A stretch of DNA of 64,000 nucleotides. Origin: Nitrospiraceae bacterium (GTDB lineage Bacteria > Nitrospirota > Nitrospiria > Nitrospirales > Nitrospiraceae). The notes below the pieces were generated by a model. It worked only from the letters and a program-made list of their open reading frames with translations. It was not told the DNA's origin and searched no databases. Where the stretch lies: positions 62,001 through 126,000 of the forward strand of contig JABFSG010000032.1 of NCBI GenBank assembly GCA_013140715.1, written 5' to 3'. The translations under genes were made by a program, and so were the position numbers. Below, piece after piece: positions 1-19,960 of the stretch (the stretch's first letter is position 1; every line of letters starts with the position of its first letter).

Positions 1-15
1 GGTATACTCTGAAGT

Positions 16-327
16 GTGAAAGTCATGACCTTCAGAGAATGGACCGGCTTGGGCCTTATCGTGGTGGGTCTACTTTTGCTTCCAGCGGCGTGGGCGTTCA
101 GTCGTGCCTTGTGGCTTCTGAGCTTTAGTATGTTCGCTGTGGGAGTTTGGATTTTCTACACAGGTCGAGTTCTCCGACGCGAAGCCCGACTCGACAAACT
201 CAAGGGTAGCCAGCGTGCGGGAGCAGACATCCCGAGCGACATTCACAACTATACTGGGTGGCAACAGGCTGGAAGGTCAAAGACCATGGATACTTCAGCT
301 GAGGCTGTTGACGCTGACGGTGATTGA
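16..327 (+). CDS. small membrane protein, hypothetical
   Basis: A 103-residue protein of unknown function. The N-terminal half has two hydrophobic stretches (about residues 9-28 and 31-50), predicting two membrane helices. A charged, hydrophilic C-terminal tail follows. An in-frame TGA at 10-12 shows that the reading frame begins inside the window. The likely start is GTG at 16, or ATG at 25. It is the first of three short membrane or secreted proteins on the same strand, in a segment visibly richer in A+T than the core genes further right. I recognise no family. Confidence 0.55.
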   Translation: MKVMTFREWTGLGLIVVGLLLLPAAWAFSRALWLLSFSMFAVGVWIFYTGRVLRREARLDKLKGSQRAGADIPSDIHNYTGWQQAGRSKTMDTSAEAVDADGD

Positions 328-420
328 AGGACCATAAGGGACATGCGACCGTTCTATGACGCCTTACAGCCACCGCTGCAAGCATTGCTTCACCGCGTGG
401 AAAAGTATGGGTAGAAACTC

Positions 421-756
421 TTGAACTCTTCATGGCTCCATAACACGAAGCAGACGTGGAAAGTTGTGTTATTTTTGCTGTCGATGGTGTTTACCCTTTG
501 CCTATTCGCTCTGTTTGTGTGGCGAGTGAATAACCCTAACGCAGTTCTCTCTGTCGTTCCCGACGAAATTAGTTTAAGTCTCTCTTTCGTGGGGCTGGGT
601 CTGATTTCATTGGGCTGGCTGTGGCTAAGCGTAAAGTGTCCAGAATGTAAAAGGAGTGTATCAGGACACATACTCAAGACAGCTCCTGCTGGCACATGGT
701 TCACAACTTTAACAACCCTGCAGAAGTGTCCGCTATGTGGAGTCAACCGGACGTAA
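421..756 (+). CDS. membrane protein with C-terminal zinc ribbon, hypothetical
   Basis: A 111-residue protein with two hydrophobic segments (about residues 13-33 and 50-69). They are followed by a soluble tail with paired cysteines, CPEC near residue 73 and CPLC near residue 102, a probable zinc ribbon. The only start available after the in-frame stop TAG at 412 is TTG at 421, so the true start is uncertain. It lies between two other small hypothetical genes on the same strand. The ribbon next to two helices suggests a membrane-anchored zinc-binding protein, but no function can be assigned. Confidence 0.5.
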   Translation: MNSSWLHNTKQTWKVVLFLLSMVFTLCLFALFVWRVNNPNAVLSVVPDEISLSLSFVGLGLISLGWLWLSVKCPECKRSVSGHILKTAPAGTWFTTLTTLQKCPLCGVNRT

Positions 757-777
757 CTTCAGTCAGGTCAAAAACAG

Positions 778-1146
778 ATGAAAGACTGGAAGTCAGTAGT
801 TTCTCTCGGAATGGGTTGTTTTCTTCTGACGTGCCTATATTTCACATCGCTAGCCCTAAGCTATGGCTATGATGGCGAAGTGCGTGTCATAAACTTGGCC
901 ACCGAACCGGTAAAAAATGGTGAACTCGAAGTTTGCGATCAACAATTCCAGCTTGGAGGAATTGACAAGGGAAAAAGCAAGTTGTTCCGATATAAAGTGA
1001 GGTCGGACTCACATTTCAGACTTATAGTGGAATTCAATTCTGGAAGAAAGCTAACACGAGAACTAGGTTATGTCACAAGTGGTCGGGACTTTAAGCATAC
1101 TCTGACATTGAAAGATGGTGAGGTCTTGTTAACTCTGCTGCCGTGA
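778..1146 (+). CDS. secreted or membrane-anchored hypothetical protein
   Basis: A 122-residue protein beginning with a hydrophobic signal or anchor (about residues 8-28, ending near SYG). The rest is predicted beta-rich and extracytoplasmic, with no recognised domain. The ATG at 778 is preceded by the words GTCAAAAACA, which are part of a repeat seen again at 1160 and 1587, so this spacer is shared among neighbours. Base composition is A+T-rich compared with the core genes. Function unknown. Confidence 0.5.
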   Translation: MKDWKSVVSLGMGCFLLTCLYFTSLALSYGYDGEVRVINLATEPVKNGELEVCDQQFQLGGIDKGKSKLFRYKVRSDSHFRLIVEFNSGRKLTRELGYVTSGRDFKHTLTLKDGEVLLTLLP

Positions 1147-1159
1147 GTTCCTCAATGGG

Positions 1160-1190
1160 TCATTTTTGAGCCGATGAGGTCAAAAACAAA
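1160..1190 (+). repeat. 31-bp direct repeat, copy 1
   Basis: A 31-bp word starting TCATTTTTGAGCCGATGAGG lies just after the stop of the 778-1146 gene. A second copy at 1587-1618 differs only by one inserted C. Part of it (GGTCAAAAACA) also precedes the gene at 778. Both full copies follow a gene end in the same orientation. Confidence 0.8.
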
Positions 1191-1264
1191 TGAATGTGAC
1201 CCTTAAGCCCCTTCATCGATAGTTTTGTGGTTCAAAGCAAGCTAATCCTTAAGTGAGTTTTGGC

Positions 1265-1537
1265 ATGGAACGATACTATTGCAGATGGAATGAAGATGAC
1301 ATAAGAGGTCTTCATTCTATTTCTCAGATCTCAAGTTTGTACACAGAATCCAATGCACAGGGGGTGGTGCTGAGAGAGATTGGTCTCGACAAACTTGGAA
1401 AGATTACTCACTGATATCCATCAAGTTCACACCCTTTCGGGTCTCGCGGGATCTTTGACACCCAAACTGTTGAACTTTCTAGCGGAGCCACAAAGCTCAC
1501 TAAGGATGAGTTCGAGGATCTTTGGCACATGACGTAA
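1265..1537 (+). pseudogene. DUF6881-like gene interrupted by one TGA codon
   Basis: From ATG 1265 the frame reads 49 codons, meets TGA at 1412-1414, and continues open for another 40 codons to TAA at 1535-1537. The conceptual product is about 90 residues. It starts MERYYCRWNEDD, has a YTESNAQGVVLREI strand pair and ends with KDEFEDLWHMT. That pattern (N-terminal Y.(V/C).W, a central LYSE-like segment, C-terminal EFE.LW) resembles DUF6881 proteins; this is recognised from memory and not checked. A single CGA-to-TGA change would account for the stop. The intact frame on both sides suggests recent inactivation or a sequencing error. Confidence 0.55.
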
Positions 1538-1586
1538 TGAGAAAGCGAGGCAGTTGAGTTCGAAAGCCAGAAGGGACCAAATTCAG

Positions 1587-1618
1587 TCATTTTTGAGCCG
1601 ATGAGGTCCAAAAACAAA
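1587..1618 (+). repeat. 31-bp direct repeat, copy 2
   Basis: Second copy of the repeat at 1160-1190, identical except for one extra C (GGTCC in place of GGTC). It lies 50 bp past the end of the broken DUF6881-like gene, in the same orientation. Confidence 0.8.
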
Positions 1619-1675
1619 CGATTTTGGAGAGCGATAGGACACACAACAAAAGAGTTATCCGAAACTAGCCCTAGC

Positions 1676-2221
1676 CCGCCCCGCGAAATGGTTTCTGACT
1701 TCGTTCCGTAATTAGAAAGTTCTTATATGGTCGTCAATGGTCTTGAATCCTTTCTCCCTCAAGGCATGAACAATCTTACTCAGATTACCTTTAGTATTGG
1801 CGTAGAACGTGGTGAATTCGTCGTGATCGGCATAAATAGCGAAACGCTTGGGAGAGGGAATAAACAAGAAGTCGATCCAGTCTGCTAGGGTGGCACTTAA
1901 AAGGGCTTCGACCTCTTGTTGGCCCTCTGCTTCCAAGACAACGTCGTGGGTGACTTGCTCCGAAACTGATCGTTCGGTAAGAAATGCATTCAACGTTTTT
2001 GGTTCAAATACGTAGCCATCAATCGTCACGCAGCCACTCTCGATTGGTTGATGCACCGCGAAAAAAGTAGAAACAAAGCGCTCAAGATCTTTGAGCGGCG
2101 TCTCAAAAGTTGTCTGGAATGGCCAAGGATTGCGTTGAAACTGTTTCAAGGTTTTGGAGTTAATTGAAGCTCTCATGCGACAAGTCTAGCACGGAGAGTC
2201 GTGACCGCCCCGCCCCGCGAA
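1676..2221. repeat. 12-bp direct repeats bracketing an inverted gene
   Basis: The word CCGCCCCGCGAA occurs at 1676-1687 and again at 2210-2221, one on each side of the only minus-strand gene in this accessory segment (1712-2176). It is G+C-rich within an A+T-rich segment. Direct repeats around a single gene of opposite orientation suggest a discrete inserted module, but no transposase is present. Confidence 0.5.
1712..2176 (-). CDS. hypothetical protein, 154 aa
   Basis: A soluble 154-residue protein with no signal peptide or membrane segment. Its C-terminal half carries IPSPKRFAIYADHDEFTTFY, a patterned aromatic stretch, followed by an amphipathic helix. The start ATG is at 2176. It is the only minus-strand gene among plus-strand neighbours and is bracketed by 12-bp direct repeats. 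It could be an immunity-type or accessory protein, but I see no motif that identifies it. Confidence 0.6.
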   Translation of the reverse strand: MRASINSKTLKQFQRNPWPFQTTFETPLKDLERFVSTFFAVHQPIESGCVTIDGYVFEPKTLNAFLTERSVSEQVTHDVVLEAEGQQEVEALLSATLADWIDFLFIPSPKRFAIYADHDEFTTFYANTKGNLSKIVHALREKGFKTIDDHIRTF

Positions 2222-2592
2222 TAGAGATTCAAAACATTGGCTCAACTGTTCAAAATCAGTTCTTTTTGACCCCTTCGACTTCCAGCCTTGATCCTCAAGG
2301 AAATCACAGAATCACAGCTAGGGATTTCGCAAGCCTTTTGGACCCCTGGTTGCCCTCAAGCAATCTATTGTCACCCACATCGATGAGAGAAACCGCTTTC
2401 GAGTCTCGTCTGGAGATTCTACATCCTCGTTTCTTTTGACGAACCTTCTACAGCCAGATACTCTTCTATCTAGAAATTAATTGAGTAGTACATGCTTAGA
2501 AATCTTTCGCCGTTGGAGTAATCTTGCCCGCAAAGGATTGCTGAGACTGCACGGGTAAACTGCTGCAGACTTAGTAGTTGGGTGGAAAAACA
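2222..2592. other. intergenic stretch without a recognised gene
   Basis: About 370 bp between the inverted gene and the frameshifted cassette gene. A 91-codon plus-strand frame starting at 2164 overlaps the start of the inverted gene and has no family pattern, so I do not call it. No attC site, hairpin or promoter could be supported. Confidence 0.4.
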
Positions 2593-3201
2593 ATGATCCT
2601 TGCCTATTGCATCAGCGCACAAGACGACGATAGCTACATGCTCGGCGAGGACACTTATAAACCAAAAGAATCAGCGGGATTTTATGACTGGCGTTTTGGA
2701 AAAACGGCATCCCGCACCCGGCTACATGCGCAATCTGCGGAAGGAAGACTGATCCGGACTATGTGAATCCAATGTATCGTGTGAAAAAAAAGAAAAAGAG
2801 ATATCACGGCGACCTATGATGGGTATCTCATCGCTTCAAAAAGATTTCGAGGCATCTGCCTGGAATACCAGTATCAAGGAGTCGAGTTTATCTCCCTACC
2901 ATCTGACGCGGACTTTTATTGGCTCCGATCCAACCGAATCATTCGTTTTGACGCTGAGCGGAGATCGACTCGATTTGAGAAGTATTGTGCCGATTGCAAA
3001 GCGCACTTCGACGTGGTGGGCGCAACGCCGGTGTACCTGAAGGGCATCAATGAACCGCTTTCAGAAGGCTTTTATCGATCCGACCTTGAGTTTGCATCCG
3101 GTCACGAACAGGCTCCGCTGACTATTGTTGGAGTAGAAACCGCCAATCAACTCCGACAAATGAAGCTGCGAGGGTTTGAATTATCTGCCGTAAAGAAATG
3201 A
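2593..3201 (+). pseudogene. frameshifted cassette gene with CxxC pairs
   Basis: The sequence reads as one protein of about 200 residues if two single-base shifts are corrected. ATG 2593 leads through ...GFYDWRFGK. The frame must shift in the A5 run at 2700-2704 to give ...HPATCAICGRKTDPDY. It must shift again in the A8 run at 2784-2791 to give ...DITATYDGYLIASKRF. That frame continues through a second pair (CADC) to the stop at 3199-3201. Adding one A to the first run and removing one A from the second restores a single frame. Two CxxC pairs suggest zinc binding. The C-terminal part (SDLEFASGHEQAPL..., ending RGFELSAV) recalls immunity-type proteins; this is inference. An attC site follows the stop by 7 bp. 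Confidence 0.65.
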
Positions 3202-3208
3202 GTATAGC

Positions 3209-3271
3209 GCCCAACAAGGCGCGCCACCTGACGCCGCAAACAGTGCAGCGCGGGTAAGCTAGGCGTTAGCC
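3209..3271 (+). other. attC site 1 (integron cassette recombination site)
   Basis: Starts with the R'' box GCCCAAC (3209-3215) seven bases past the stop of the preceding gene and ends with the R' box GTTAGCC (3265-3271). Between them are G+C-rich words (AAGGCGCGCC ... GGTAAGCTAGGC) typical of cassette attC sites. The next gene starts 16 bp after R', the usual cassette spacing. The internal pairing is imperfect. Confidence 0.6.
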
Positions 3272-3286
3272 CTCTCTGGAGAATGC

Positions 3287-3712
3287 ATGACTGGAAAGCA
3301 GCCAAAACGCAAGCCACGTCCAGGTATCGATGAATATGGCCGCACCCCCCTCCATTACGCGGCAGCAGACGGCTTAGCCGATGGGGTAACGCGGTTGCTA
3401 TCCGCAGGTGCAAACGCAAATGTTCAGGACGACAACGGGTGGACACCTCTCCACTTTGCGGCACAAGCGAATTCACCGAGTGTTGCCAACGCTCTTCTAT
3501 TGGCTGGGGCTCAAACCGAACTGACAGATTCCTATGGTAACACTCCTCTTTGGAAGGCGGTTTTCGCATCGAAGGGTGATGGTGCTGTGATTCGACTACT
3601 CCTTAACGCTGGGGCGAATCCGAATGCCGCTAATTTTAGCGGGGTCTCACCTTTGACTCTTGCCAAAAGCATTGGCAACTACGATGTTGCCCAGTTTTTC
3701 GATGGCATATAA
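3287..3712 (+). CDS. ankyrin-repeat protein (cassette gene)
   Basis: A 141-residue soluble protein made almost entirely of ankyrin repeats. The visible units begin DEYGRTPLHYAAADG (about residue 16), DDNGWTPLHFAAQ (about 48), DSYGNTPLWKAVF (about 81) and NFSGVSPLTLAKS (about 117). Each has the TPLHxAA helix-turn-helix signature and a preceding GANxN loop. Such proteins bind other proteins; the partner is unknown. The ATG at 3287 lies just after the R' box of attC site 1, and an attC-like half site follows the stop by 12 bp, so the gene sits in cassette format. Confidence 0.85.
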   Translation: MTGKQPKRKPRPGIDEYGRTPLHYAAADGLADGVTRLLSAGANANVQDDNGWTPLHFAAQANSPSVANALLLAGAQTELTDSYGNTPLWKAVFASKGDGAVIRLLLNAGANPNAANFSGVSPLTLAKSIGNYDVAQFFDGI

Positions 3713-3724
3713 ACGGTGAGCGAG

Positions 3725-3902
3725 GGCTAACATGGCGGTCAAGCGGGGCGCATACGAGTCCAGTCGACGGTTTGTTACGCCATCCAACAGGGGGAGTCGT
3801 ATCCGGAACCGTATAAGACTCTGAATAGAGAAATGCAGCGAAGAACTTCAAGAAATTTCTTGGGCTTAGTGCCTAGTCCTGGCAAAATGCTGCAAGGGTC
3901 TT
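3725..3902 (+). other. attC half-site plus remnant of a deleted cassette
   Basis: GGGCTAACATGGCGGTCAAG (from 3725) matches the left half (R''-L'') of an attC site, but no matching right half with GTTAG follows. Instead there is an open frame without its own start, including CYAIQQGESYPEPYKTLN (about 3766-3819). It looks like a fragment of a real protein and runs out of frame into the next gene. I infer a deletion that removed the right half of the attC and most of a cassette gene. Confidence 0.4.
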
Positions 3903-4292
3903 ATGGTGATTTCACGCATCAAAGAAAAGCTTCGGAAGTATCCGCATGTCACTTACACTACGACCGAGGGTCATTTGGAGATTCCGGCACAGAGTCCGAC
4001 GGGTTTTCGCGTCTGGATTCACGAGCGAGCAGACGGCTGTACTGTCGGTTTCGACGGCTGGCATGAGGAGTTCACCGATGCCGACGAGGCGCTCAACTGT
4101 TGTGCGTTTGGCCTTTCCACTGCCTGCCGCCTCCGAGTTTTCAGCCGAGGTAGCGCGGACTACAAGTGGCAGGTTCTCCATAAGGTGGACGGCCAGTGGG
4201 TTACAGACAGCGAGACCGGTCTGTTTGTTTTCCCGTTCTGGCAAGGGAGCGTTCAGAGGGATTTACAGAATGAAATCATCAGTGGGGCCTAA
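3903..4292 (+). CDS. hypothetical cassette protein, 129 aa
   Basis: A soluble 129-residue protein, rich in aromatic residues (GFRVWIHERADG, VGFDGWHEEF, LFVFPFWQG). A helix carrying paired cysteines sits in the middle (LNCCAFGLSTACRLRV). No signal peptide or membrane segment. Its stop codon TAA (4290-4292) lies inside the R'' box of attC site 2, the standard overlap of a cassette gene with its attC. The family is not identified. Confidence 0.7.
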   Translation: MVISRIKEKLRKYPHVTYTTTEGHLEIPAQSPTGFRVWIHERADGCTVGFDGWHEEFTDADEALNCCAFGLSTACRLRVFSRGSADYKWQVLHKVDGQWVTDSETGLFVFPFWQGSVQRDLQNEIISGA

Positions 4293-4379
4293 CCAGGCGC
4301 TGCAGCGAACCCGATCGGTGCACTCTGGTTGCAAGCGTGGTCCCTCCTTGGCCGGGTCGCTGAGCTTGGGTCGTTAGCT
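4287..4379 (+). other. attC site 2
   Basis: R'' box GCCTAAC (4287-4293), then CAGGCGCTGCAGCGAACCCG. The right half contains CCGGGTCGCTGAGCTTGGG and ends with GTTAGCT (4373-4379). The two halves are complementary apart from small bulges (GCGCTGCAGCGAACCCG against CGGGTCGCTGAGC), as an attC hairpin requires. The next start codon is 5 bp beyond the site. Confidence 0.8.
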
Positions 4380-4384
4380 GCCTG

Positions 4385-5086
4385 ATGCGAGCCTATCATC
4401 CCACCCCAGAGTCAACGGACGACTACTCGTCGGTTCGTGTCAACGGCATGTGGTATCAGCCCTGGCAGTCGGGCTACGACGATATTCTGAAACACGGCGT
4501 TCCCCGGCCGACAGATAAACGGACAATCTTGGCCGAGCTTCACTCGCCGCATGTCCCGGATTTCCTCCACGGTGGAGGAAGCGGCGAAGTGCCGTTCTTG
4601 GTTACGGAACGTGCTCGAAGCGTACTTGAGAAACATCGCCTCACCGGATTCGACTTTGCACCCGTGCTTGTTGCCAAGATCGCGACGAAGGGAAAGCGCA
4701 CCAGGGGAACCAGAGGGGGCGAGCCAGAGGATTCAATTCTTAAGGCTCGGGGAATCTCGCTTGTAGAAGCACCCATCCTCTTCGCCGTCTACGTTGTCGG
4801 CCGCGTTGATGTACTCCCAGACCAAGAATCTGGCCGGCATCCATCCGGCTGTGTTGCTCCTTTCCAAATTGTCGGCGAGAGAGCCGAGGGGGCTGATCTT
4901 TGGAGGCCGCAGTATCGAGGGGTTGCCTTCTCGGCATGGGCGTTTTGTTCTGATCAGTTCAGAAGCGTTTGTGTTCAAGAGGGACTATCGAACATTCAAT
5001 TCGAGTCATTCGAGTCCTTCATGGAGGCGCATCACATGGCAGCTAACAAGCGCTTGCAGGGGATGCCACAGAGCGGGCGTCCCTGA
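4385..5086 (+). CDS. hypothetical cassette protein, 233 aa
   Basis: A soluble 233-residue protein. It contains FLVTERARSVLEKHRLTGFDFAPV near residues 70-95. This helix followed by LxGFxxxPV resembles the C-terminal segment of the frameshifted cassette gene to the left (VGVETANQLRQMKLRGFELSAV) and recalls some immunity-type families. The relation is inference. The start ATG at 4385 is 5 bp past attC site 2. The last 15 codons (AANKRLQGMPQSGRP) are encoded by the left half of attC site 3, so the reading frame runs into the recombination site, as is common for cassette genes. Confidence 0.7.
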   Translation: MRAYHPTPESTDDYSSVRVNGMWYQPWQSGYDDILKHGVPRPTDKRTILAELHSPHVPDFLHGGGSGEVPFLVTERARSVLEKHRLTGFDFAPVLVAKIATKGKRTRGTRGGEPEDSILKARGISLVEAPILFAVYVVGRVDVLPDQESGRHPSGCVAPFQIVGERAEGADLWRPQYRGVAFSAWAFCSDQFRSVCVQEGLSNIQFESFESFMEAHHMAANKRLQGMPQSGRP

Positions 5087-5101
5087 AACGCTGCGTTGGT
5101 C
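5041..5101 (+). other. attC site 3
   Basis: A 61-bp imperfect palindrome: AGCTAACAAGCGCTTGCAG, then GGGATGCC, an 8-nt loop, GGCGTCCC, and TGAAACGCTGCGTTGGTC. The inner arms pair with one G-T wobble, and the outer arms pair as CTAAC-AAGCGCTTGCAG with CTGAAACGCTGCGTTGG. The boxes deviate from consensus (R' reads GTTGGTC) but the fold is that of an attC. It overlaps the 3' end of the preceding coding frame. Confidence 0.65.
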
Positions 5102-5300
5102 TGTATCCAGACCAGGAAATCTCTAGCCATCCCGAAGCTACCGATCCAAGCGAAGAGCATCACAATTGTGCTCGTTTTGTGCTCAAGCCCACCTCATTCC
5201 AGCCCACTCAGGCCTATTCCAGCCAAAGTTCGAGTTTTGAGGAACCCTTGGCTGGAGTTGGCCCCAGTGAGTTCCCGTAGGCCTGAGTAGGGTCGCGATT

Positions 5301-5317
5301 GCGGTTTCCTAAACCGC
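5301..5317 (+). other. tRNA-Arg(CCT)-like anticodon arm relic
   Basis: GCGGT-TTCCTAA-ACCGC forms a perfect 5-bp stem with a 7-nt loop, U33-type T before anticodon CCT and purine A after it. The flanks only weakly resemble a D-arm (CCCGTAGGCCTGAGTAGGGT) and do not give a full cloverleaf. I treat it as a possible degenerate tRNA-Arg; a chance hairpin is possible. Confidence 0.3.
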
Positions 5318-5438
5318 TTGTCGGCGCCTCGAAGCCTCCCATTTCAATAGATTGCTTGTTTTAGTCGCGCGCTCTTTCATATTAAGTAAGTCTTCAAATC
5401 CGGCGTAAAATAAGGCGAAGTCGAGATCGGGTTAAAAC

Positions 5439-5466
5439 ACGGGTTCAAATCCCGTTGGGACCACCA
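5439..5466 (+). other. tRNA 3'-end fragment with CCA (attachment-site-like)
   Basis: ACGGG-TTCAAAT-CCCGT is a perfect T-arm with the TTCAAAT loop. It is followed by a 7-nt acceptor strand TGGGACC, discriminator A and CCA. The complementary 5' acceptor strand GGTCCCA is not found in the preceding 350 bp, so only the 3' end of a tRNA is present. Such fragments are left at the distal end of islands that integrated at a tRNA gene. It separates the cassette region from the core genes. Confidence 0.7.
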
Positions 5467-5803
5467 TATTGCACCAGTTCTTGCCGCTCGAGCCTCGCCC
5501 GCGATTGCGCGAAAAGAAAACATCTACGCAGGATATTTTCCCATTCATAACATCGCTAGTCATAGGAGCCATCATTGAGTTGGAGCGCGGGATAAGCGCC
5601 CTCCGACAATTCTGACGACCGTCTCCAGTAAGGCCAGTGACGCTTTCGAGCGCCTCTGCCATGGAGCCCGTTGAATCCACATCTTGATCGTTGAGGACCC
5701 TGTCGATTCCCTCCGCTGTTTTCTTCTCTCGAATTTTATGGTGGCACGATGAGTAAGCGATCTGTGCTCACACAGCAGGAGAAGTTATATGACTCCAACT
5801 TCG

Positions 5804-5833
5804 TTGACGCCTCTATTGTTGGTTGTGTATAAA
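5804..5833 (+). promoter_or_regulatory. sigma70-type promoter of the DHS-like operon
   Basis: TTGACG (5804-5809), an 18-bp spacer and TATAAA (5828-5833) lie 45 bp upstream of the ATG at 5878. Close to consensus in both boxes. Confidence 0.55.
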
Positions 5834-5877
5834 GAATGCTCCGTTTTCCTTTCACTTGATGGTAGGTAGACTCTTCT

Positions 5878-6984
5878 ATGGGCACACGTGAATTTCATGA
5901 TGGAGCGCAAGATGGCCTCGAAGCGCTTGAGCCTCTCGACCCGGAACAGATCGGATCCTTCGATGGACTGTTGACCGCTATGCGCAAGACAGCCTTTGGG
6001 GGCCGCAGAGTGGGTGAGGCTTACGAAGTGCTGTGGAAGATGATCGAAGACCAGGACTGTTTCGTCGTGCTGACATTGTCAGGGGCGATGACCATCGCCA
6101 AGATGGGCAAGATAATCAGCGCGATGATCGATCACGGGATGGTGCAGTGCGTTGTTTCCACCGGAGCATTGATCGCGCATGGATTGAGTGAGTCGGTAGG
6201 CAAGACACACTATCGACACCATCCATCGATGTCCGATCAAGAGTTGTTCGCGAAGGGCTATAATCGGGTCTACGATACCCTGGAGATGGAATCCAACCTC
6301 AATTATGTGGAGCAGGTCGTTGCCCGAACGATGAAACGGATGGATCGGGACCAGATTCTTTCCTCTGAAATCCTCACCCGTGAACTGGGCAGGACACTCA
6401 CGGAGGAATATGACGGAACGGGTATTCTTAAGAGTGCTTATTTGAAACACGTCCCGGTCTTTATCCCTGCCTTTACCGATTCCGAGATGGGGCTGGATCT
6501 TGGAACCTGGGCCATGAGTCGAGATCTCGATCAGGCCCGTGCAGAGGCACAGGGAGGCGGCGATCTTGATGTGCTACGTGCGACTCATCGTTCCTATCCT
6601 TCGTTCAATCCCTATCTCGATCTCAACAGCTACGCAAGCCATGTTATCTCTGCCAAACGGCGTGGGATCTTTACGATCGGCGGAGGAGTGCCTCGAAATT
6701 GGTCGCAACAGGTCGGCCCCTACATTGAGATCAGCAATACGCGGTTGGGTCTCAATGTGGAGCCGCCTCGATTCCAATACGGGGTGCGCATCTGTCCGGA
6801 ACCAGACCATTTGGGCGGGTTGAGCGGCTGTACCTATCAAGAAGGTCTTTCATGGGGGAAGTTCGTTCCACCGGAAGCAGGCGGACGCTTTGCCGAGATA
6901 ATGAGCGATGCCACGGTCGTCTGGCCTCTTCTGATGGTCGGATTGCTGGAGCGCATGAAAGCAAAGCGGACCTCGCGTACATGA
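5878..6984 (+). CDS. deoxyhypusine synthase-like protein (probable homospermidine-type synthase)
   Basis: A 368-residue protein of the deoxyhypusine synthase (DHS) fold. The NAD-dependent family signature is visible: LTLSGAMTIAKMG (about residue 62), GGGVPRNW and, near the C-terminus, GLSWGKF with the lysine at about 328. That lysine matches the catalytic lysine of human DHS (Lys329), which carries the aminobutyl group from spermidine. Bacteria have no eIF5A, so the acceptor is unlikely to be a protein. Bacterial DHS homologues are known to make homospermidine from small polyamines. Arginine decarboxylase and agmatinase genes nearby support a polyamine role. The stop overlaps the next ATG (ATGA). 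Confidence 0.85.
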   Translation: MGTREFHDGAQDGLEALEPLDPEQIGSFDGLLTAMRKTAFGGRRVGEAYEVLWKMIEDQDCFVVLTLSGAMTIAKMGKIISAMIDHGMVQCVVSTGALIAHGLSESVGKTHYRHHPSMSDQELFAKGYNRVYDTLEMESNLNYVEQVVARTMKRMDRDQILSSEILTRELGRTLTEEYDGTGILKSAYLKHVPVFIPAFTDSEMGLDLGTWAMSRDLDQARAEAQGGGDLDVLRATHRSYPSFNPYLDLNSYASHVISAKRRGIFTIGGGVPRNWSQQVGPYIEISNTRLGLNVEPPRFQYGVRICPEPDHLGGLSGCTYQEGLSWGKFVPPEAGGRFAEIMSDATVVWPLLMVGLLERMKAKRTSRT

Positions 6985-7688
6985 TGAGTCCACGTTGGTT
7001 CTACACGGTTACCGGTGCATTGCTGCTGGCCCTCGCTCAACTGGCCCAGGCCGGCGGAGGAGTGGGGACAGAGGACGGACGAACCAGAGGACGAGCCGAC
7101 GCTCCTATTACCCTGCTCGAGTATTCTGACTTTACCTGCGGGTACTGTGCGAAGTTCTTTCTGGAGACCTGGCCTCGCTTGCAGGCAAAATATATCGATA
7201 CAGGCAAAGTGCGGTTTGTCTATCGGGACTATCCTCGAGCGGACCAGGGGGTCGGGGTTGATGCGGCAGTCGCGGCCCGCTGCGCTGGAGCCCAGGGTCG
7301 ATATTGGCCGATGCACGACCGGCTCTTCAGTGAACGGGGCCGCTTGAATTCGGGACTGTTCAAAGGTTACGCAAAGACGATAGGTCTGGATGAGGCGGCG
7401 TTTGCCAAATGTTTCGACGAACGAGAGTATCTCGAGTCCATTTTCCGAGATCGCCAGGAAGCGAACCGATGGGGATTTCATGGCACCCCCGGTTTTATTC
7501 TGACGCGAACGGCTGGTGGACCCACTGAGAAAGAGCCGGCGGTTGCGATCCCAGGCGCAGTCCCGTTCGAGGATTTTGCCGAGGAGATCGACCGCATGTT
7601 GGCCACCGCCCCGCGCTCCCAGGGAGAGCCTACCGGGCCTCATGGGTCGACTGCGGTGGCACAGAACAGTCAGTTCATCATTCACTAA
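6981..7688 (+). CDS. DsbA-family thiol oxidoreductase
   Basis: A 235-residue exported thioredoxin-fold protein. A signal peptide (about residues 8-24, ending AQAGG) is followed by the DsbA-like domain. This has the active-site pair CGYC at residues 53-56 in YSDFTCGYCAKFF and a cis-proline loop, FHGTPGFIL. It should oxidise or isomerise periplasmic thiols; the substrate is unknown. The chosen start ATG 6981 overlaps the stop of the DHS-like gene by 4 bp, implying translational coupling. A longer in-frame extension upstream lies inside that gene and is not credible. Confidence 0.85.
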   Translation: MMSPRWFYTVTGALLLALAQLAQAGGGVGTEDGRTRGRADAPITLLEYSDFTCGYCAKFFLETWPRLQAKYIDTGKVRFVYRDYPRADQGVGVDAAVAARCAGAQGRYWPMHDRLFSERGRLNSGLFKGYAKTIGLDEAAFAKCFDEREYLESIFRDRQEANRWGFHGTPGFILTRTAGGPTEKEPAVAIPGAVPFEDFAEEIDRMLATAPRSQGEPTGPHGSTAVAQNSQFIIH

Positions 7689-7697
7689 GGATTACCT

Positions 7698-7967
7698 ATG
7701 TCTGCCACACAATCGTTTTGGTCTGTTCCGCTCCGTGAGGGAGAACCCCCCTACTGGGTCTGCATGTCATGCTTATCAGAAGTCTTCTATTGCAAAGTGC
7801 CGATGCCGGATTGTCCGACGTGCCAGGGTGTCTCAACGTATGAGGCCTTCACGCTTGAGGCGATCCATGATTGGGGTACGGAAGATTTGATTGCGAAAGC
7901 CGCTGTCGCCCAGCAAGCAGCCAGCCACGAGCCGGCTCCTGCGGCATCGGTTAAGTCCACCGACTAA
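7698..7967 (+). CDS. small zinc-ribbon protein, hypothetical
   Basis: An 89-residue cytoplasmic protein with two cysteine pairs, CMSC at residues 22-25 and CPTC at 39-42, which would form a zinc ribbon. The C-terminal third is alanine-rich and probably disordered. It begins 9 bp after the DsbA-like gene and is followed 26 bp later by an aldehyde dehydrogenase, so it is probably co-transcribed. No enzymatic motif is visible; function unknown. Confidence 0.65.
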   Translation: MSATQSFWSVPLREGEPPYWVCMSCLSEVFYCKVPMPDCPTCQGVSTYEAFTLEAIHDWGTEDLIAKAAVAQQAASHEPAPAASVKSTD

Positions 7968-7993
7968 ATCTTCACCACAAGCGGAGCCACTTC

Positions 7994-9433
7994 GTGCAGG
8001 AACCACATCCATTTTTAATTGGAGGTTTGTGGCGGCACGGAGAGACCGTTGTGCCTGTGAACAATCCATTCACAGGACGTCTACTTGCCGAGGTATCGAA
8101 CTCTGGTTCCGTCGATGCCGAGGATGCAGTCCAATCGACGGTCGATGCCGCTGTCGCAATGGGAGCGTTGCCGTCACATGCTCGCTATCATGCGTTGCAA
8201 AAGATCGCGGGCGGGCTCTATGACCGCCGCGAGGAATTTGCCCGCCTGATGACGGCTGAGGCAGGCAAACCGATTACCGACGCGAAACGTGAAGTGAATC
8301 GCGCCGTCCAGACATTTACCGTTGCGGCTGAAGAGGCAAGGCGGATACCTGGCGAAGTAATCCCCCTTGACTGGACACCGGGAACGGACTCCCATCTCGG
8401 CATCCTCCGCCGGGTTCCGATCGGCCCGGTGCTGGGGATTACCCCCTTTAACTTTCCCCTCAATCTTGTGGCTCACAAGGTTGCGCCGGCCCTGGCTGCC
8501 GGCAATTCCATCTTGATCAAGCCGGCGCCACAAACGCCTTTGACGGCATTACTTTTGGGAGAGGTGATTCTGGGGGCCGGACTTCCACCCGGCGCAGTGA
8601 ATATCCTGCCCTGCGACAACGGTATAGCAGAACGGCTCGTTGCCGATTCCCGCTTCAAACTTCTGAGCTTTACCGGCAGCGCTGCCGTGGGATGGATGTT
8701 GAAGGCCAAGTGCGGGAAAAAAAAGGTGGTGTTGGAGCTTGGTGGGAACGCGGGCGTCATCGTGGAGCCCGATGCCGATATCGAGCTTGCCGCACAGCGT
8801 TGCGCAGCCGGCGGGTTTGGGTATGCCGGTCAGACCTGCATATCCGTTCAACGAATCTTCGTCCACCATTCCATCGTAGACCTCTTCACCACGAAGTTTC
8901 TGTTTCAAGTCGCACGGCTGAAGGCCGGAGACCCAAGCGACGATACAACGGTGGTTGGGCCGTTGATCGACCCAGCCGCCTCCCATCGTCTTGAAACATG
9001 GGTTGGGGAAGCAGTGTCGCAAGGCGCCCGAGTGCTTCTGGGCGGCAAGAGAATGGGATCGGTGATGGAGGCGACCGTGCTCTCGCACGTCACGCCGACC
9101 ATGAAAGTTTCCTGTCAGGAAGTGTTCGGGCCGGTGGTGACCGTGACACCCTATCGCCACTTCGGTGAAGCAATCACAGCGCTCAACCAGTCTGACTTTG
9201 GGCTTCAAGCCGGAGTGTTCACCCAGGATGTGAACAAAGTCTTTCATGCCTTTCGACATCTTGAGGTCGGGGCTGTGCTGGCAAACGAGATTCCGACGTT
9301 TCGCGCTGACCACATGCCCTATGGTGGTGTGAAGGACTCAGGAATCGGTCGCGAAGGAGTGCGGGCTGCGATCGAGGACATGACAGAGCCTCGCATGCTG
9401 GTGTTGAACCTCAAACCACCTGCGGGGATCTAG
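7994..9433 (+). CDS. NAD(P)-dependent aldehyde dehydrogenase
   Basis: A 479-residue ALDH superfamily enzyme oxidising an aldehyde to a carboxylate. Landmarks in order are the cofactor-site stretch ITPFNFPLNLVAHKVAPALAAGN, the Rossmann turn FTGSAAVG, the general base glutamate in LELGGN, the catalytic cysteine in GYAGQTCIS, and the C-terminal EVFGPVV and MPYGGVKDSGIGREG motifs. The substrate cannot be read from sequence. In this polyamine neighbourhood an aminoaldehyde is possible, but lactaldehyde or glyceraldehyde-3-phosphate types share these motifs. Start is GTG 7994. Confidence 0.88.
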   Translation: MQEPHPFLIGGLWRHGETVVPVNNPFTGRLLAEVSNSGSVDAEDAVQSTVDAAVAMGALPSHARYHALQKIAGGLYDRREEFARLMTAEAGKPITDAKREVNRAVQTFTVAAEEARRIPGEVIPLDWTPGTDSHLGILRRVPIGPVLGITPFNFPLNLVAHKVAPALAAGNSILIKPAPQTPLTALLLGEVILGAGLPPGAVNILPCDNGIAERLVADSRFKLLSFTGSAAVGWMLKAKCGKKKVVLELGGNAGVIVEPDADIELAAQRCAAGGFGYAGQTCISVQRIFVHHSIVDLFTTKFLFQVARLKAGDPSDDTTVVGPLIDPAASHRLETWVGEAVSQGARVLLGGKRMGSVMEATVLSHVTPTMKVSCQEVFGPVVTVTPYRHFGEAITALNQSDFGLQAGVFTQDVNKVFHAFRHLEVGAVLANEIPTFRADHMPYGGVKDSGIGREGVRAAIEDMTEPRMLVLNLKPPAGI

Positions 9434-18658: not shown

Positions 18659-19903
18659 ATGGCGATGGAAGATCAGCGAACAACCGTCTACAAAATCGAT
18701 CCGGCTCATCCGGAAAGTGAGACCCTTCCGACGTTACGTTCCGAAGAGCTCCTGCTCAACATGGGTCCCCAGCACCCTGCCACCCATGGGGTATTGAAGG
18801 TCATTCTCGAATTGGAAGGAGAGCGCCTCGTCAAGTCTACTCCCGTGCTGGGGTATCTGCACCGCGGTGTGGAGAAATTGGCAGAAGACGGCACGTATCA
18901 CCAATTTATTCCTCATACCGACCGGCTCGACTATGTCTGCGCGATGTATAACAATTTTGCGTACTGCCGCGCAGTCGAAAAGCTGATGAATATCACCGTG
19001 CCTGACCGTGCCGAATATCTGCGCACGATCGTGGCGGAAATCCAGCGGATCATCGGGCATCAGTTTTGGCTCGGCACTCAGGCTCTCGACATCGGGGCCA
19101 TGGGCGTCTTTTTCTATTGTTTCCGGGATCGGGAAATTCTGATGGACTGGTTCGATGAACTCTGTGGCGCGCGCCTCACAACCAGTTGGTATCGCATCGG
19201 CGGCGTCGAGCGAGACTTCACACCCTCCCTGATCGAGAAGCTGAAGCAATTTTTGGACTACTTTCCACCCAAAATAGACGAGTACGTGGTGTTCCTCGAG
19301 AAGAACCGGATTTGGCTTGGGAGAACTAAGGGCGTGGCCATCATCTCGGCGGAAGACGCCGTGAGTTTCGGGTTGAGTGGACCGACGCTCCGTGGCTCAG
19401 GCGTCGACTATGATCTCCGTAAAGCCGAGCCCTATTCGGCCTATTCGAAATGCGAGTTCAGCGTGCCCCTCGGGAAGAACGGCGACACGTACGATCGGTA
19501 TTGGATTCGTGTTCAGGAACTTTATGAGAGCATAAAAATCGTCCGGCAATGTTTGGAGCAGATGCAGGAAGGCCCCATTATGGCCGACGTGCCCAGTGTG
19601 ACATTGCCGCCGAAGCAACGAGTCTTTACGAATTTGGAATCCATGATCCAGCAATTCAAGCTCTTCTCGCAGGGCTTTGATGCCCCTCCGGGAGAGATCT
19701 ATTGCGGGACTGAAGCGCACAAGGGTGAATTGGGATTTTACATCGTCAGCACCGGTGGCGGGAAACCCTACCGCTTGAAAATTCGCGCCCCCTCGTTTAT
19801 TCACATGGGCGCTTTTGACCATATGTCCAGGGGCTACATGATCTCGGATGCGGTTACGATCTTTGGGACCTATGACATTGTGATGGGGGAATGCGACCGA
19901 TAA
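18659..19903 (+). CDS. nuoD: NADH-quinone oxidoreductase subunit D
   Basis: A 414-residue 49-kDa-type subunit that helps form the quinone-binding pocket with NuoB. It has the conserved NMGPQHPATHGVLK loop (about residues 33-46) with the histidine that contacts quinone, the YLHRGVEKL motif and the C-terminal IFGTYDIVMGECDR. Length is normal. It is followed by an 80-bp spacer containing a heptamer-based hairpin before nuoG. Confidence 0.95.
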   Translation: MAMEDQRTTVYKIDPAHPESETLPTLRSEELLLNMGPQHPATHGVLKVILELEGERLVKSTPVLGYLHRGVEKLAEDGTYHQFIPHTDRLDYVCAMYNNFAYCRAVEKLMNITVPDRAEYLRTIVAEIQRIIGHQFWLGTQALDIGAMGVFFYCFRDREILMDWFDELCGARLTTSWYRIGGVERDFTPSLIEKLKQFLDYFPPKIDEYVVFLEKNRIWLGRTKGVAIISAEDAVSFGLSGPTLRGSGVDYDLRKAEPYSAYSKCEFSVPLGKNGDTYDRYWIRVQELYESIKIVRQCLEQMQEGPIMADVPSVTLPPKQRVFTNLESMIQQFKLFSQGFDAPPGEIYCGTEAHKGELGFYIVSTGGGKPYRLKIRAPSFIHMGAFDHMSRGYMISDAVTIFGTYDIVMGECDR

Positions 19904-19908
19904 GAAGG

Positions 19909-19960
19909 GAATGCTGAATGCGCAATGATGAATGGAGAGAGGCCTTTCAATTCACCATTG
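19909..19960. repeat. heptamer-phased hairpin between nuoD and nuoG
   Basis: Four degenerate 7-bp units in register (GAATGCT, GAATGCG, CAATGAT, GAATGGA; 19909-19936) are followed by a complementary arm. CAATGATGAATGGAGAG (19923-19939) pairs with CTTTCAATTCACCATTG (19944-19960) at 14 of 17 positions across a 4-nt loop. The RNA hairpin would lie between two coding regions of one operon. Confidence 0.7.

Follow-up and report, generated by a model that had tools for sequence, protein, structure and literature searches.

The element described here occupies positions 2508-5101 of a 64,000-nucleotide stretch of DNA (the window) from a Nitrospiraceae bacterium (GCA_013140715.1, contig JABFSG010000032.1, positions 62,001 to 126,000 of the forward strand). 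It is most probably a relic integron, consisting of an attI site and four gene cassettes (A-D) whose integrase gene was lost, and it forms part of the cargo of a genomic island in a tRNA-Glu(CTC) gene. The initial annotation, made from the letters of the window, had described it as a cluster of attC sites lacking an integrase (CALIN), and this description is supported by three attC sites recovered with an independent covariance model, by the lack of an integron integrase (IntI) in the genome and by the polymorphism of the cassettes; like any CALIN, the array groups two or more attC sites within a short distance on a single strand and has no integron integrase nearby. Its order is attI-A-attC1-B-(broken attC2)-C-attC3-D-attC4, because attI adjoins the first cassette (Table 1).

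Regarding the attC sites, a covariance model was chosen because attC is conserved in structure more than in sequence; a string-matching scanner did no better on real than on shuffled sequence and was abandoned. The model, R1, was trained on 18 sites, namely four attCs of class 1 integrons on plasmids and 14 sites adjoining IntI genes in relatives, with all window sites excluded. Its base pairs covary (25 cells changed on both sides vs 9.2 in shuffles), and it recovered the arrays of the relatives' integrons on the expected strand, many of these sites being training sites. On 96 kb, i.e., the window and the 32 kb to its left, R1 gave exactly three matches, all on the plus strand and spanning 1.9 kb, with no further match reaching an E value of 10; it gave no match at E ≤ 1 in about 149 kb of neighboring genomic DNA from relatives, plus 39 kb more. 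The three attC-like sites of the initial annotation were recovered at their exact ends and on the same strand, and the covariance-model check proposed with them, on the contig extended to the left, was answered in their favor. As for the half-site noted at 3725, its R'' box and L''-like half are present, while R1 with the filters off recovered no plus-strand attC there and the full model gave 9.6 bits on the wrong strand. The stop codon of the gene at 3903 does lie inside an R'' box (TAA at 4290-4292); gene starts 5-16 bp after R' were confirmed for 2593 (9 bp, the distance between the end of attI and the first cassette gene), 3287 (15 bp) and 4385 (5 bp), and the gene at 3903 does not fit this spacing. 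Between the attC2 remnant and the latter gene lies a dispersed intergenic repeat, 60-114 bp long, which may have destroyed the right half of attC2. The repeat has a palindromic start (GTCTTATACGG..CCGTATAAGAC), with copies also in loci L164, L165 and L166; an Rfam scan of window positions 1-9000 matched nothing.

The left edge of the array carries the putative attI. Positions 2552-2582 have 26 of 31 identities to the attI of a relative, G102, located 168-198 bp beyond the IntI stop codon, and the runner-up within the 64 kb has 19 of 31; a longer alignment gave 69% identity over about 85 columns with L154, another attI-like locus (E 8e-8). The intI genes of the relatives point toward the array, whose first cassette starts 170-210 bp past the intI stop; the arrays lie on the other side of IntI from the canonical one, where they were first sought. 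The attI call was based on the direct match and the longer alignment and not on a position matrix from nine attI sites, which was weak alone: the window site ranked 25 of 127,956, 2 with the TA-type subset and 608 when G102 was left out. It is from this match, to attI sites that stand beside IntI genes in relatives, that the array is interpreted as a probable relic integron that lost its integrase.

IntI was called as a TIGR02249 match over the cut-off of 265 bits, and the search for it suggested by the initial annotation found none over the cut-off in the whole genome; the best match had 80 bits, and only other tyrosine recombinases were seen. Of the parts of a complete integron, attI is present at the array start by sequence and position, and the intI gene is missing. 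The earlier remark that no tyrosine recombinase is visible is correct for that stretch of the window, but a phage-type one ends about 1.8 kb to the left of the window; it was rejected as IntI on its TIGR02249 score (Table 1), being an ordinary phage-type integrase.

The island measures 8,793 bp from repeat to repeat, and it has the features of a tRNA island: a tyrosine integrase beside the tRNA, a far edge marked by a direct repeat of the tRNA 3' end, and relatives in which the site is empty. G135, the closest relative found, has the site empty, its flanks meeting at one copy of the repeat, with the left flank 97% and the right flank 90% identical. The gap between tRNA-Glu and the deoxyhypusine synthase gene is an integration hotspot because it is empty (<450 bp) in about a dozen members of the genus and filled in about ten others. 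A sister island lies at the same site in G134, another species of the genus, with 91% identity in the integrase module and 86% in the right end. In both islands, the aligned right end begins with the R' box of the last attC (GTTGGTC in the window, GTTAGGC in G134) and runs to the tRNA repeat; upstream of the box, attC and genes are unrelated. As read from this alignment, the shared right end is the likely trace of a site-specific exchange at G^TT; we infer the exact base, because the alignment is poorer over the 40 bp next to the box than farther on. A second type of attI is present on the sister island as well (72% over 162 bp, E 3e-20). Two outcomes had been named in advance as speaking against a cassette array, no attC model match or the same gene order conserved without polymorphism in many distant relatives; the attC matches exist, the cassettes are polymorphic and the closest relative has an empty tRNA site.

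Table 1. Features of the array and of the island that carries it (window positions, unless C31 or L009 is given)
Feature	Position	Strand	Description
tRNA-Glu(CTC)	C31:58596-58673 (= L009:16596-16673)		outside the window
Phage-type tyrosine integrase	C31:58753-60249 (= L009:16753-18249)	-	PF00589 86.7 bits; TIGR02249 39 bits vs 265
HTH_17 protein	C31:60497-60808	-	island left part
MazE-like/PIN pair	C31:61084-61694	+	island left part
Genomic island in tRNA-Glu(CTC), right two thirds	1-5466		left part outside the window
Putative attI	2508-2583	+	core CTGCTGCAGACTTAGTAGTTGGG; crossover G2577^TT; 13-bp internal gap vs relatives
Cassette A gene	2593-3201	+	unknown protein; frame broken at two A-runs (~2700, 2781-2800); open reading frames 2593-2766 and 2785-3201
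attC1	3209-3271	+	R'' GCCCAAC, R' GTTAGCC; R1 23.4 bits, E 0.0018
Cassette B gene	3287-3712	+	141 aa; ankyrin repeats; Pfam Ank_2 E 3.9e-30
attC2 remnant	3725-3781	+	R'' GGCTAAC and L''-like half only
Dispersed intergenic repeat	3793-3904		between attC2 remnant and gene C; matches in G142, G038, G140, 72-90%
Cassette C gene	3903-4292	+	129 aa; stop codon in attC3 R''
attC3	4287-4379	+	R'' GCCTAAC, R' GTTAGCT; R1 36.9 bits, E 6e-7
Cassette D gene	4385-5086	+	233 aa; C-terminal Imm11 (PF07791) 26.5 bits vs cut-off 22.1; frame runs into attC4
attC4, last attC of the array	5041-5101	+	R' GTTGGTC at 5095; R1 30.4 bits, E 3e-5
Island right end	5095-5434		common to G134 sister island (86%) from R' box onward
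Right attachment site	5435-5466	+	32-bp exact copy of tRNA-Glu 3' end

As for the origin of this arrangement, the island would have entered the 3' end of tRNA-Glu(CTC) via its own phage-type tyrosine integrase, leaving the 32-bp repeats, and an integron integrase like those kept in some relatives, cutting G^TT in the R boxes, would have joined the cassettes A-D at attI and to one another. Without an integrase, the array should now be frozen unless another source provides IntI in trans, whereas the island may still be mobile by means of its own integrase.

Several points weigh against a relic integron. There is no intI remnant at window positions 1700-2600, i.e., upstream of attI, and because of this we infer the loss of intI from attI alone, a site that was itself recognized by sequence and position alone; in addition, attC1 is weak and imperfect, attC2 is a half-site, and the assembly has 105 contigs (completeness given as 99.7%), so that an IntI gene in a gap is possible. 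The missing remnant would also be expected if IntI acting in trans had inserted the cassettes straight into the island at a secondary site (attG), on a platform that never had its own intI. Insertions of this type are known (Loot et al. 2024, as cited in PMC11389934), and insertion at G^TT would give a right-end homology with G134 that starts at the R' box, as it does; however, attG insertion would not bring an attI-like site, and one with 26 of 31 identities to a canonical attI directly borders the first cassette on its left, which makes this course of events unlikely.

The fragmented assembly, together with the intact IntI of two members of the genus, is also compatible with an intact integron elsewhere in the genome or missing from the assembly, with the array still active in trans; this is very improbable, as the whole-genome search gave only other tyrosine recombinases, far below the cut-off, and both attC2 and attI are damaged. 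Finally, the imperfect attC1 may evoke chance hairpins between ordinary genes, an explanation that is hardly credible when three same-strand matches fall within 2 kb vs none in the rest of the 96 kb, a gene stop lies inside R'', attI is present and the polymorphism sets in at the crossover point. CALINs are usually called from attC sites alone, which leaves open whether they are decayed integrons or the product of insertion in trans; the retained attI and the sister-island homology from the crossover box let this question be answered for this array.

Beyond the locus, integrase-less remnants are common in this bacterial family, for which 175 genomes were sampled, 32 of them from the genus. Matches to attC (E ≤ 0.01) occur in 126 of the 175, and IntI over the cut-off in 18, including two of the 32 genus members. 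The attI core pattern (20 fixed bases), taken at 0-1 mismatch, is far commoner than the ~0.07 places calculated for random sequence; counts at three mismatches were near those of a reversed-pattern control and were not used as evidence. Sixteen attI-core loci were fetched, leaving out of the count four further ones picked for a known nearby attC: nine have a same-strand attC 0.4-1.5 kb downstream, and upstream of three the 3' part of an IntI gene persists; among the remaining 13, one is cut short by a contig end. The IntI fragments look truncated at the 5' end, but this may be an effect of the E-value limit, and no claim is based on it.

The genome under study holds a second integrase-less unit, in C35 (L101:1772-3768), where an attI of the second type (90% identity to the G147 one) is followed by a 546-aa gene and a 29.9-bit attC; a weaker unit lies in C73 (L102:3606-4742), with an attI-like core, a 340-aa gene and a weak attC of 19.7 bits. 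It is rather doubtful, although conceivable, that integrase-less attI-cassette-attC units are a regular component of the genomes of the family, where attI would provide many docking sites, scattered over chromosome and islands, that the IntI of some strains serves in trans; if so, attI would be a spreading part besides the attC cassettes, and a platform could be separated from its integrase. The left ends of these units were compared, since a shared one would suggest a mobile unit; they scatter around -90 to -230, from which nothing was concluded. CALINs are a known kind of locus; what stands out is the number of attI units that lack an integrase. Because attC and attI-like sites outnumber intact IntI, the family is a good system for how platforms lose or share their integrase. 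No description of such units as a family-wide pattern was found in the part of the literature covered. Two side observations concern similar loci: two genera (G019, G132) share one attI-cassette-attC unit (L147 and L153), the attI region being identical, and in the genome under study C2 (L099:3834-5197) has two attC flanking a 363-aa gene with a match to a type I restriction N-terminal domain (HSDR_N), with no attI seen.

For the phylum Nitrospira, two CALINs were already reported, and Ca. N. inopinata is the source of both (IntegronFinder 2.0, PMC9024848). The window array resembles CALINs (Cury et al. 2016; PMC9024848) in its three attC on one strand without IntI, and it differs from them in keeping an attI, which makes it traceable to a complete integron, and in being cargo of a tRNA-Glu island. 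In Treponema, intI is transcribed toward attI, and in T. phagedenis an array was left after the loss of intI, as is proposed here; Treponema integrons, however, are described without association with mobile elements (PMC3607928), whereas the window integron is inside an island. Xanthomonas has inactivated intI genes and CALINs away from the main integron (PMC12444791); repeated IntI loss is common to the two cases, with the difference that here attI-like sites, besides attC clusters, occur at many loci. As for tRNA-borne integrative islands, the integrase beside the tRNA, the helix-turn-helix protein, the tRNA 3'-end repeat and the empty sites in relatives are all typical, but here part of the cargo is a cassette array that recombines by a different chemistry of its own.

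Regarding the cassette genes, none has a DNA match in the 175 family genomes beyond attC-sized and repeat-sized pieces. Cassette A had no match in the family searches; another frame between its two breaks encodes a CxxCG motif, pointing to either a sequencing error or a pseudogene. Relatives of the cassette C product (36-45%) come from one genome of the family and from metagenome-assembled genomes titled Verrucomicrobiales, Terriglobia, Deltaproteobacteria and unclassified bacterium; those in other phyla have no attC nearby, and no relatives of C or D were found in plasmids. The predicted structure of C reached a predicted local distance difference test (pLDDT) score of 90, with no Foldseek match below E 0.1; the fold of an Rhs immunity protein, the best match of a second look (Z 7.6 over 71 residues), was rejected as within the range of unrelated folds. 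The model of D was unusable (pLDDT 35), and from its predicted Imm11 domain alone it may be guessed that some cassettes protect against the toxins of competitors. In PADLOC, gene B matched ankyrins in a generic way and a cassette from another part of the genome had one marginal methyltransferase match, and there was nothing else.

Two repeated sequences of the island complete the picture. An intergenic repeat of about 160 bp with inverted repeats (5163-5324) has copies with 70-87% identity in dozens of genomes of the family, often at least two per genome, and the motif GTCATTTTTGAGCCGATGAGGTCAAAAACAAATGA recurs between small unknown island genes at window positions 769, 1159 and 1586 and at L009 ~19836-19939, as well as in the sister island of G134 (L103:15245-15348).
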